From: Burkholderiaceae bacterium
GTDB taxonomy: Bacteria > Pseudomonadota > Gammaproteobacteria > Burkholderiales > Burkholderiaceae_C
Assembly (NCBI GenBank): GCA_017992055.1
Contig: JAGOPK010000001.1
Location: 124,001 to 188,000 of the forward strand
DNA length: 64,000 bases
Direction of reading: 5' to 3'
In this document: positions 41,916-44,428 of the stretch, piece after piece
How the letters are laid out: each line of letters begins with the position of its first letter
Position numbering within the stretch: position 1 is the first letter of the stretch
Notes under the pieces: model-generated
The model's database searches: none
The model's input: the letters and a program-made list of their open reading frames with translations, nothing else
Told to the model about the DNA's origin: nothing
Translations under genes and position numbers: made by a program

Positions 41916-42983
41916 TCAGTTCGCGGCCTTGATGCGCGCCGCGAACATCTGGCCCACGGTGCCCAGGCCCTCGCCGACCACGCTGCGGTAGCGCTGCGGA
42001 TCGGCCACGGCCTGGAAGCGGGCGCTGGATTCGCTGTCCTTGTTGCCGATGGCCATGCGCAGCAGGCCGGTGGCGATGGCCCCGGCGATCTCGCCGCCGC
42101 TCTTGGCCTCCTCGCGCACCTCGGCAATGGCCGAGGGGTCCAGCGCCAGCGGCTGCTTCAGGCTCAGCGTGGTGCCGCTGTGGGCGGTGCGCAGCGTGGC
42201 ACTGGCGGTCTGGATGCTGGGATAGGCCTTGCCCGAGACCTCGGCCGTGCTCGCCAGTCGGCCCAGAAAGCCCTTGTTGTGATTGCTCAGCTTGACGAAG
42301 TGCACGCGCAGGTTCACTTCCATCAGCGTGGCCCCGCCCAGTTCCTGCTGCAGCGGCGCGGTGTCGAAGGCCGAGCCGATGACCGTGGCCACCTCGCCCA
42401 TGGCGCCGAGGCTGGCCAGCAGCCCGCCGCCTGCCGGGCGGCTGCCCTGGCCGGCGGCCATCTTGTTGACGCCGTAGATGGCCATGCCGGGCGGCGCGAC
42501 GGTGATCGAGTGCTCGTTGCGCAGCGGCGCCGGCACGCCGGTGGCGGCCAGCTTCTGCCAGGTCGGCGAGGCCAGCACCTGCTCGCTGGGCACGACCTCG
42601 AGGCCGGCCTCCGTCAATGACTGCACCAGATGCTGGTACAGGGCAGCGGCCAGGGCCTGGAAGTCGGCCTCGCCGACGCCGGCCAGCGTATAGAAGGCGC
42701 TGCTGCGCGCGCGCCCGGCCGCGGCAAAGCCCGAGGTCTCCGCCGACACCTGGTCACCGGTGACGAACTGCACCGAGAACAGCGGGATCGCCAGCCTGCG
42801 CACGCCTTTCAGCAAGGCCGCATCGCTGACCTCCAGGTGCTCGGCCGCCAGCGCCGCGGGTGCGCTGGCCAAGTTCAGCGCCACCGGCGCGGGTGGCTCG
42901 GCGGCTGGCGCCGCGGCGGGCGTCAGCAGGCACAGGGCGCAGGCCAGGGTGGCCAGGCGGTGGGGCATGGGGCAGGACATCAT
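41916..42983 (-). CDS. Hypothetical secreted protein, 355 aa
   Basis: The start at 42983 (or 42980/42968) gives about 355 residues with a Sec signal (LATLACALCLLTPAAAPAA). I do not recognise the family. Segments such as GVRRLAIPLFSVQFVTGDQ, GVGEADFQALAAALYQHLVQSLTEAGLEVVP and TLMEVNLRVHFVKLSN suggest a mixed alpha/beta fold that first computes a lipoprotein-like region, but no motif stands out. No transmembrane helix is visible beyond the signal. It is divergent from the DAHP synthase leader; nothing links it functionally to its neighbours. Confidence 0.65.
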   Translation of the reverse strand: MMSCPMPHRLATLACALCLLTPAAAPAAEPPAPVALNLASAPAALAAEHLEVSDAALLKGVRRLAIPLFSVQFVTGDQVSAETSGFAAAGRARSSAFYTLAGVGEADFQALAAALYQHLVQSLTEAGLEVVPSEQVLASPTWQKLAATGVPAPLRNEHSITVAPPGMAIYGVNKMAAGQGSRPAGGGLLASLGAMGEVATVIGSAFDTAPLQQELGGATLMEVNLRVHFVKLSNHNKGFLGRLASTAEVSGKAYPSIQTASATLRTAHSGTTLSLKQPLALDPSAIAEVREEAKSGGEIAGAIATGLLRMAIGNKDSESSARFQAVADPQRYRSVVGEGLGTVGQMFAARIKAAN

Positions 42984-43083
42984 GGCGGGGCCTTGTGGAC
43001 GGATGGACGGGGTTTCAGCCCTACGCAGGCGGCCGGCGCCAAACGGCGCAATGGGCCGCCACATCGCGCCACACCGGCCGTGC

Positions 43084-43089
43084 TACATT
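43084..43089 (+). promoter_or_regulatory. Extended -10 element for the aroG leader
   Basis: TACATT preceded by TGC (43081-43083) forms an extended -10. The predicted start point, about 43096, is almost at the leader-peptide ATG (43098), and no ribosome site precedes that ATG. The -35 is not recognisable, as is common with an extended -10. Confidence 0.5.
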
Positions 43090-43097
43090 CGCCGCCC

Positions 43098-43175
43098 ATG
43101 CGCGCTCCGCGATTTTTCTTTGCCTACTTTTGGTTCTCGCCCCTGACCGGCGGCTGGAGAGGCAAGCGCGCGTAA
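43098..43175 (+). CDS. Aromatic-rich leader peptide of the DAHP synthase attenuator
   Basis: This 25-codon frame begins MRAPRFFFAYFWF and holds five Phe, one Tyr and two Trp codons, six of the eight aromatic codons lying in seven consecutive codons with one neighbour (43113-43136). It ends with TAA at 43175, 22 nt before a strong intrinsic terminator. The composition is what a ribosome-stalling sensor of aromatic aminoacyl-tRNA needs. It is likely translated from a leaderless or near-leaderless start. It is too short and biased to be a functional protein. Confidence 0.8.
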   Translation: MRAPRFFFAYFWFSPLTGGWRGKRA

Positions 43176-43208
43176 GCACCGCAGACCGAACACCCAGAAA
43201 ACCGCCGG
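43147..43208 (+). promoter_or_regulatory. Antiterminator pairing of the aroG attenuator
   Basis: CCGGCGG at 43147-43153, inside the leader peptide just past the aromatic codons, is exactly complementary to CCGCCGG at 43202-43208, the left arm of the terminator. A ribosome stalled at the Phe/Tyr codons leaves this arm free to pair, which would break the terminator. The pairing is read directly; the mechanism is inferred from known attenuators. Confidence 0.6.
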
Positions 43209-43228
43209 CAAGCCCGGCGGTTTTTTTT
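43198..43228 (+). terminator. Intrinsic terminator of the aroG attenuator
   Basis: ACCGCCGG (43201-43208) pairs with CCGGCGGT (43214-43221) around a 5-nt loop, and AAA/TTT extends the stem to 11 bp. A run of eight T follows (43221-43228). It lies between the leader peptide and the DAHP synthase ATG at 43271, so it would cut off aroG transcription unless an antiterminator forms. Confidence 0.9.
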
Positions 43229-43270
43229 CGCCCCTGCACATCCGTTCCCCACGTTTCCCAGGAGTTCACG

Positions 43271-44428
43271 ATGGCCCCGAAGTCCCCCGCCCGCGCCGCC
43301 GGCGCCTCTGCCAGCACCGAACCGGGCTATGGCTATGCGCTGTCCGAGAAGACCAGCCAGACCGACGACCAGCGCATCCAGGAGGTGACACCCTTGCCGC
43401 CGCCCGAACACCTGATCCGCTTCTTCCCGATTGCCGGCACGCCGGTGGAGCAGCTGATCGCCGGCACGCGCCAGACCGTGCGCCGCATCATGGAAGGCCA
43501 GGACGACCGCCTGCTGGTGGTCATCGGTCCCTGCTCGATCCACGATCCCGCAGCGGCCCTGGAGTACGCGCGCAAGCTCAAGCTGGAGCGCGAGAAGTAC
43601 AAGGACACGCTGGAGATCGTGATGCGCGTGTACTTCGAGAAGCCGCGCACCACGGTGGGCTGGAAGGGCCTGATCAACGACCCCTACCTGGACGAGAGCT
43701 ACCGCATCCACGAGGGCCTGCGCATCGCGCGCCAGCTGCTGCTGGACATCAACCGCCTGGGCGTGCCGGCGGGCAGCGAGTTCCTGGACGTGATCAGCCC
43801 GCAGTACATCGGCGACCTGATCAGCTGGGGCGCGATCGGCGCGCGCACCACCGAAAGCCAGGTGCACCGCGAGCTGGCCTCGGGCCTGAGCGCACCGATC
43901 GGCTTCAAGAACGGCACCGACGGCAACCTGAAGATCGCCACCGACGCCATCCAGGCCGCCAGCCGGCCGCACCACTTCATGTCGGTGCACAAGAACGGCC
44001 AGGTGGCCATCGTGCAGACCAAGGGCAACAAGGACTGCCATGTGATCCTGCGCGGCGGCAAGGCGCCCAACTACGACGCCGCCAGCGTGGCCGCGGCCTG
44101 CGCCGAGCTGGAAGCGGCCAAGCTGCCCTGCCAGCTGATGATTGACTGCAGCCATGCCAACAGCAGCAAGCAGCACCAGCGCCAGATCGACGTGGCGCGA
44201 GACATCGGCGAGCAATTGGCGGCGGGCAGCCGCTGCATCTTCGGCGTGATGGTCGAAAGCCATCTGCATGCCGGCGCGCAGAAGTTCAGCCCCGGCAAGG
44301 ACGATCCGGCGGCGCTGGCCTATGGCCAGAGCATCACCGATGCCTGCATCGGCTGGGACGACTCGGTGGGCGTGCTGGACACGCTGAGCCAGGCGGTGAA
44401 GGCGCGCCGCGCCCGGACGGCGGGCTGA
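43271..44428 (+). CDS. aroG: 3-deoxy-7-phosphoheptulonate (DAHP) synthase, class I
   Basis: The enzyme condenses phosphoenolpyruvate and erythrose 4-phosphate in the first step of the shikimate pathway. The 385-residue protein has VIGPCSIHDPAAALEYA, MRVYFEKPRTTVGWKGLINDP, SEFLDVISPQYIGDLISWGAIGARTTESQ in outline, GFKNGTDGNLKIA and IDCSHANSSKQH. This is the AroAI-alpha subfamily with allosteric aromatic amino acid control in E. coli. AGGAG lies 7 nt before the ATG. It is expressed through the attenuator at 43098-43228. Which aromatic acid inhibits the enzyme cannot be told. Confidence 0.95.
   Translation: MAPKSPARAAGASASTEPGYGYALSEKTSQTDDQRIQEVTPLPPPEHLIRFFPIAGTPVEQLIAGTRQTVRRIMEGQDDRLLVVIGPCSIHDPAAALEYARKLKLEREKYKDTLEIVMRVYFEKPRTTVGWKGLINDPYLDESYRIHEGLRIARQLLLDINRLGVPAGSEFLDVISPQYIGDLISWGAIGARTTESQVHRELASGLSAPIGFKNGTDGNLKIATDAIQAASRPHHFMSVHKNGQVAIVQTKGNKDCHVILRGGKAPNYDAASVAAACAELEAAKLPCQLMIDCSHANSSKQHQRQIDVARDIGEQLAAGSRCIFGVMVESHLHAGAQKFSPGKDDPAALAYGQSITDACIGWDDSVGVLDTLSQAVKARRARTAG

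Follow-up and report, generated by a model that had tools for sequence, protein, structure and literature searches.

A probable aromatic-codon transcription attenuator upstream of one of two class I DAHP synthase genes in a Burkholderiaceae genome and its relatives

The locus described here provides a candidate answer to the question by what means many Burkholderiales control an entry enzyme of aromatic amino acid synthesis. The window, i.e. the whole stretch of source DNA analysed (64,000 nt), contains a class I 3-deoxy-7-phosphoheptulonate (DAHP) synthase gene, preceded by a short frame with many aromatic codons and by an intrinsic terminator. An initial annotation had read this arrangement as transcription attenuation of the trpL/pheL type. 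The reading favoured here, to which a probability of about 0.9 is assigned, is that a ribosome-mediated attenuator of that kind controls this gene, one of the two class I DAHP synthases of the genome. Judging from the sequences, the switch would very probably turn the gene on when aromatic amino acids run short.

Layout of the leader region

The elements of the region are the following; all lie on the + strand.

43081-43089 (+): extended -10 promoter element, TGC-TACATT, read from the sequence
43098-43175 (+): leader peptide frame, MRAPRFFFAYFWFSPLTGGWRGKRA, 25 codons and TAA, read from the sequence
43125-43136 (+): proposed stall codons Tyr-Phe-Trp-Phe, placed by geometry (spacing, hairpin, codon conservation)
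43129-43143 (+): proposed arm 1, 5' side of the 1:2 hairpin (core 43134-43143), from the fold and the swapped-halves test
43147-43153 (+): arm 2, 5' arm of the antiterminator, CCGGCGG, from the sequence and from pairing in the alignment
43198-43208 (+): arm 3, left arm of the terminator, AAAACCGCCGG, from the sequence and from pairing in the alignment
43214-43224 (+): arm 4, right arm of the terminator, CCGGCGGTTTT, from the sequence and from pairing in the alignment
43221-43228 (+): T run of eight T, four of them also in the stem, read from the sequence
43271-44428 (+): class I DAHP synthase, the gene proposed to be regulated, from TIGR00034 and PF00793

The leader frame opens with the ATG at 43098, 8 nt after the end of the -10 hexamer (43084-43089), and closes with the TAA at 43173-43175. 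Eight of its 25 codons are aromatic (five Phe, one Tyr and two Trp), and no Shine-Dalgarno sequence is seen before its ATG. The intrinsic terminator (43198-43228) is composed of an 11-bp stem and a 5-nt loop. Within arm 3, the CCGCCGG at 43202-43208 is the exact reverse complement of arm 2; arm 2 in turn shares bases with the 3' strand of the proposed 1:2 hairpin (43149-43161, with outer pairs reaching 43166). The sequence agrees with the initial annotation on the 25-codon aromatic frame, on the terminator with its 11-bp stem and eight T, and on the exact 7-base complementarity of 43147-43153 with 43202-43208. The downstream gene matches TIGR00034 with 536.9 bits, the cut-off being 173.2, and matches PF00793 as well; an AGGAG is located 6 nt upstream of its start at 43271.

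Taken alone, the window is a weak case for an attenuator. A simple scan found neither a terminator nor a promoter, and the fold of 43088-43235 is mildly better than those of shuffled sequences (z = -1.70, with 13 of 200 shuffles as good). The 25-residue leader peptide matches no NCBIfam or Pfam family, and Rfam, including T-box, gave no match at gathering score in the window or in 10 loci from several families, so that the element is likely to be missed in annotation. Automatic annotation could, in addition, pick wrong starts and hide the leader, because both frames stay open upstream, the leader frame over 42630-43175 (+, 181 codons) and the DAHP synthase frame over 42860-44428 (+, 522 codons). 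The leader promoter is adjoined by a divergent frame of 382 codons, 41916-43064 (-), which belongs to no NCBIfam family and has a sub-threshold Pfam match only (PBP_like, E = 0.006).

Occurrence among relatives and restriction to one paralog

A search of 149 related genomes for the DAHP synthase gave a match in 132, and upstream sequence was taken at 110 places; six same-family genomes with a match were left unfetched (G011, G019, G029, G059, G062 and G087). The gene start could be placed in 108 of the 110 (exceptions L102 and L103), corresponding to 83 same-family orthologs, 24 orthologs from other families and the second paralog of the own genome (L109). One same-family locus, L014, has 33 nt upstream only, which leaves 82 assessable same-family orthologs. 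Of these 82 fetched orthologs, 81 have a frame of 12-32 codons that starts with ATG and contains an aromatic cluster, and in the remaining one (L051) the core FGFYFWFSVPGG is kept inside a longer frame. The initial annotation had made its case depend on persistence of the element in close relatives, and the leader does persist there. The orthologs from other families have a leader in 11 of 24 cases and none in 13. A hairpin with at least five T in 7 lies downstream of all 92 leaders (the pick for L065 looks wrong by eye). Leaders in relatives were chosen for aromatic content, and their aromatic richness is therefore not independent. Comparison of the sequences establishes the leader with its frame and the terminator; the relatives take the case far beyond chance, which their conservation of the arrangement rules out as its origin.

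Named genomes were scanned over the best 80 of 589 loci, ranked by similarity to this DAHP synthase paralog. Sixty of these best 80 pass the joint criteria of leader, terminator and length, L152 being not assessable; the passing loci include Variovorax, Polaromonas, Acidovorax, Hydrogenophaga, Rhizobacter, Burkholderia, Caballeronia, Paraburkholderia, Trinickia, Cupriavidus lacunae, Massilia and Janthinobacterium. Within the same best 80, the element is absent from Polynucleobacter (L142, L143, L145), from two other Cupriavidus loci (L149, L151), and from Thauera (L168), Rhodocyclus (L185) and Azoarcus (L188). Some of the named loci may be the other DAHP synthase paralog. DAHP synthases 65-71% identical to that of the window were also encountered in bins labelled Planctomycetota, Verrucomicrobiia and Gemmataceae (L159, L161, L170), on contigs that are possibly misbinned; no leader was found before these three genes.

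A covariance model, built on 50 hand-picked diverse loci, was run with stricter filters on 300 genomes of the order, which is read as Burkholderiales from the genus names given above. Matches of any kind at E <= 0.01 were obtained in 135 of the 300, many of them to the terminator end only. Full-length matches at E <= 5.3e-6 were found in 77 of the 300 genomes, distributed over 14 families, and 8 of these 77 had given loci to the training alignment; the search of Burkholderiales for leader plus terminator upstream of DAHP synthase, proposed in the initial annotation, thus had a positive outcome. Two weaker full-length matches, in G163 and G367, lie above the 5.3e-6 threshold. At that threshold, a full-length match is missing from the other 223 genomes of the order, a figure to be read with the fact that divergent copies can escape the model. 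DAHP synthase is present in all 76 other genomes with a full-length match, and 75 of the 77 matches end 8-141 nt upstream of the DAHP synthase match, on the same strand. In G241 and G295 the element match overlaps a DAHP synthase protein alignment starting at query residue 3; this overlap is read as over-extension of the alignment, since those of the same genus begin near query residue 28-30. Among 274 genomes of the class, two full-length matches were found in one family of another order (G398 and G550); a DAHP synthase follows the element in both genomes, and the leaders are MNAARASFYFWYYFPKPLAEEGLRSP (ATG) and MNTPCARFYRWYYFPKPPAEEGVRAF (GTG start).

The own genome gave one full-length match below E = 1, a second one being at E = 2.83. 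It contains a second DAHP synthase, which is without the element, and control over entry into the whole shikimate pathway, claimed initially, had to be abandoned. In the own genome and 20 others, none of the 21 second DAHP synthases has an aromatic leader plus terminator: L208 shows a frame with 4 aromatics in 9 and no terminator, while L192, L193, L196 and L204 show weak hairpins and no aromatic frame. Occurrence of the element before the second DAHP synthase as well was rejected on these counts, and the element is, by sequence comparison, a property of one paralog.

Leader start, alternative pairings and proposed mechanism

In 117 of 147 leaders the ATG is preceded by a TAnnnT hexamer whose first base lies 17-11 nt upstream of it, and 109 of the 117 also carry the TG of an extended -10; control windows gave 15, 5 and 2. 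An SD-like motif before the ATG was seen in 1 of the 147. The promoter spacing, as established by this comparison, and the missing Shine-Dalgarno suggest that the leader of the window is leaderless. The near-leaderless start of the initial annotation would hold for most leaders and is not universal: in at least seven Burkholderia-type loci (L163, L164, L166, L172, L173, L180, L181) a TATAAA lies some 43 nt upstream of the leader ATG and a Shine-Dalgarno is not obvious, so that the leaderless arrangement is clade-specific.

The frame itself was evaluated on 186 stretches, with no selection on aromatic content except for one F-W motif. Of these, 108 have an extended -10 together with the F-W motif, and in 107 of the 108 the aromatic frame begins at the first ATG downstream of the -10, as would be expected if the leader frame were under selection and translated. 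Sixteen apparent out-of-frame cases were inspected: 15 of them are due to an earlier TTTTGG in another frame, and L159 has no leader.

Pairing was tested on an alignment of 50 sequences by shuffles and permutations that ignore relatedness, so that a result of 0/500 is not a probability. For the 3:4 pairing, 94.9% of cells are paired, and 12 cells are changed on both sides vs 3.1 in shuffled alignments (0/500). For 2:3, the corresponding figures are 96.0% and 14 vs 3.4 (0/500), and the covariation score is 0.173 vs 0.111 (0/500), falling to 0.065 or less when the partner is slid by 1-3 columns. On the two measures least affected by relatedness, 2:3 shows 3 doubly changed pairs vs 1.5 (35/500 shuffles) and 6 further pair types vs 5.5 (232/500), while 3:4 is at 18/500 on both; arms 2, 3 and 4 are highly conserved and offer little variation for such tests. 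Among single cases, the clearest are L038, L059, L061 and L077, where the terminator arm CCGTCGG is found with a leader arm CCGACG(G): 2:3 is kept Watson-Crick, and one 3:4 pair is turned into G-U. L071 has the same terminator arm without a matching leader change. The covariation of the two alternative pairings, suggested initially as a check, is thus observed, both being kept with compensating changes and well above the slid controls; the excess over shuffles holds for doubly changed cells and does not extend to every measure.

Over the 147 loci, arm 2 and arm 3 of the same locus score 20.39 together vs 18.85 when permuted, the best of 5000 permutations reaching 19.38. Where CCGCCGG is absent (47 loci), the own 2:3 pairing scores higher than the median of the other pairings in 24 loci, the same in 8 and lower in 15. 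Measured from the first base of the last aromatic codon, arm 2 begins 8-16 nt downstream in 132 of the 147, a narrow spacing that, like the compensated pairings, is a result of sequence comparison. Three of 92 arm 2 picks (L035, L045, L105) fell inside or before the aromatic core, probably by chance; the analysis of the 147 loci is restricted to a narrower region.

The antiterminator/terminator pair of the initial annotation is retained; an arm 1 was absent from its list and is proposed here. After the aromatic core, 43129-43143 is predicted to pair with 43149-43166 in a hairpin built on UUCUC/GAGAG, which would engage part of arm 2 (-15.1 kcal/mol for a piece of 48 nt, -14.8 kcal/mol for 43129-43166). 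GAGAG is present in the region after the core in 118 of 147 leaders. Own halves of the hairpin fold better than swapped ones (mean -12.99 vs -12.27 kcal/mol, 0/5000 permutations), in a test where the control piece is itself borderline (247/5000), and the own energy is below the row median in 63% of rows. RNAalifold gave no consensus pairs in the 1:2 region, we think because the length of the inner loop differs between clades, and the outer helix, when scored in a fixed register, did not stand out from shuffles (56/500). On this mixed evidence, an arm 1 hairpin that sequesters arm 2, in a register drifting between clades, is likely.

In the absence of a ribosome, the predicted best fold of 43098-43228 contains the 1:2 hairpin and 3:4 (-50.0 kcal/mol). 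Until arm 4 has been made, the best predicted fold has 2:3, and no ribosome is needed for this (43098-43213, -32.1 kcal/mol); with the first part masked, 43147-43213 folds as 2:3 (-24.1 kcal/mol), and when arm 4 is included 3:4 wins over 2:3 (43147-43224, -28.9 kcal/mol). Regulation must therefore be kinetic, as 2:3 is favoured before arm 4 and 3:4 wins after it. Transcription would start at the leader ATG or a few nt from it, and a ribosome would translate the leader while RNA polymerase moves on. With charged tRNA-Phe, tRNA-Tyr and tRNA-Trp plentiful, the ribosome would pass the FFFAYFWF codons, the 1:2 hairpin would form behind it, 3:4 would fold and transcription would stop before the gene. 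With an aromatic tRNA in short supply, the ribosome would stall on Tyr-Phe-Trp-Phe, covering arm 1; arm 2 would then pair with arm 3, no terminator would form and the DAHP synthase would be transcribed. The trpL/pheL-type attenuation read initially from one sequence is upheld by the conserved aromatic leader, the terminator, the compensated antiterminator and the restriction to one paralog.

Amino acids sensed, other explanations and known systems

Tyr-Phe-Trp-Phe is the most conserved stretch of the leaders, its last position being aromatic by construction. The core peptide is conserved across leaders, while outside it the peptide varies in sequence and in length (18-30 residues). Counted from the first base of its A site, a ribosome covers about 13-15 nt in the downstream direction. 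With this footprint, a stall at Tyr43125, Phe43128, Trp43131 or Phe43134 would hide arm 1 wholly or in part, and arm 2 would stay free or almost free. From this stall geometry we infer a three-way sensing of charged tRNA-Phe, tRNA-Tyr and tRNA-Trp. The proposal that all three are sensed, already made in the initial annotation, is in keeping with the 100 of 147 leaders that have Phe, Tyr and Trp all within the last four core codons, and is weakened by the 19 of 147 that lack Trp and the 7 that lack Tyr.

The same attenuator could essentially sense Phe alone, or Phe and Tyr, its Trp codons being incidental. Phe is the commonest aromatic residue (on average 4.46 per leader, with 1.59 Tyr and 0.95 Trp, over the 147) and the only one never missing (0 of 147). 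A precedent is aroR of C. glutamicum: according to the accessible text of PMC11802643, the aroF operon responds there to limitation of Phe and not of Tyr. The conservation of the Tyr-Phe-Trp-Phe stretch, with the reservation made above for its last position, and the concentration of all three residues at codons where a stall covers arm 1 and not arm 2, speak against it, and we regard it as possible but less likely than not.

The terminated leader RNA, or the peptide, could act in trans, as proposed for rnTrpL and peTrpL of S. meliloti, attenuation in cis being secondary. A leaderless leader with a strong terminator would free an RNA of about 130 nt, as in S. meliloti (PMC7298713, accessible part), and a conserved core peptide would suit such a role. 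An explanation in cis, however, is asked for by the 2:3 pairing and by the location immediately upstream of a single DAHP synthase paralog, and the peptide is variable outside its core; a mainly trans function is thus unlikely. A constitutive partial terminator with a fortuitous short frame, and no translation-based regulation, would agree with the z of only -1.70 obtained for the single-sequence fold, but the joint conservation of the frame, its aromatic codons, the pairing of arm 2 with arm 3 and the spacing of arm 2 makes it highly improbable. The initial annotation names TyrR as the regulator used by E. coli aroG. A repressor like TrpR or TyrR, or else a T-box, could control the gene and leave the leader a by-product. 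This explanation has a parallel in the use of TyrR for aroF and of TrpR for aroH in E. coli (PMC5343134, accessible part, a comparative paper reconstructing the TrpR and TyrR regulons in gammaproteobacteria), and is the least probable explanation of all, as the Trp repressor family PF01371 was found in 0 of the 31 genomes searched (the control was positive in E. coli and B. subtilis) and no Rfam family, T-box included, reached gathering score in the window.

Ribosome-mediated attenuation in cis, the reading preferred here, is a well known kind of regulation, and its DAHP synthase case is known from aroR; at this Burkholderiales gene it seems little described. The trpL (trp operon) and pheL (pheA) attenuators of E. 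coli likewise have a leader peptide of regulatory codons, alternative 1:2, 2:3 and 3:4 pairings and an intrinsic terminator. They control end branches and respond to one amino acid, whereas the element described here precedes the first common enzyme and has mixed codons; both are named in the accessible text of PMC11802643. Closer in its target is C. glutamicum aroR, located upstream of aroF, a DAHP synthase gene: it has a short leader with Phe-Tyr-Phe, read as ribosome-mediated attenuation in the accessible parts of PMC4046766 and PMC11802643. It belongs to another phylum, has Phe-Tyr-Phe only and, as stated above, is said to respond to Phe and not to Tyr, whereas the core of the window element is longer and has Phe, Tyr and Trp; the likeness is supposed to be due to convergence. 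The transcript of S. meliloti trpL begins at the leader ATG (PMC7298713, accessible part), as the promoter spacing suggests here; that leader is concerned with Trp only, lies before trpE(G), and has a reported role in trans. Leaderless leaders are also described in Streptomyces lividans (PMC8079986, accessible part). In Shewanella, RNA motifs computed as cis-regulatory precede the DAHP synthase genes aroF and aroH (PMC2659441), and a table in the same paper lists, as prior knowledge, "Attenuator sensing tyr-tRNA" for aroF, citing work in E. coli; this is another lineage, and the accessible text describes no leader of the form found in the window.

No description of the element in Burkholderiales was found in the literature searched, most subscription journals and supplements lying outside it. 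A study of Burkholderia cenocepacia with a table of 82 short 5' UTRs (PMC5688073, accessible part) might include it, and the accessible texts of PMC4603805 and PMC2965389 have nothing on this DAHP synthase gene. Special points of the element are its mostly leaderless form and its mixed aromatic codons. Putting these together, we tentatively suggest, at somewhat less than even odds, that one mostly leaderless leader integrates the charging of Phe, Tyr and Trp tRNAs in one stall window and thereby gates the committed shikimate step, in many Burkholderiales families and in one further order or more, lineages in which the genomes searched gave no Trp repressor; the terminated leader RNA may also act in trans. 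The element would be a compact natural object for direct tests of three-amino-acid sensing and of attenuation from a leaderless start.

Codon usage differs between leader and gene. It was counted in 58 of the 60 named loci, L153 and L189 being dropped. UUU and UUC are found in a ratio of 167:86 among the Phe codons of these leaders, and of 60:317 in the first 300 codons of the downstream DAHP synthase matches at the same 58 loci. The preference for UUU would fit slower decoding at the stall site; alternatively, it could reflect a need for U-rich RNA. The share of UUU is greater in the leader than in the gene in 57 of the 58 loci, and in the window the DAHP synthase has 0 UUU and 8 UUC, the leader 3 UUU and 2 UUC.
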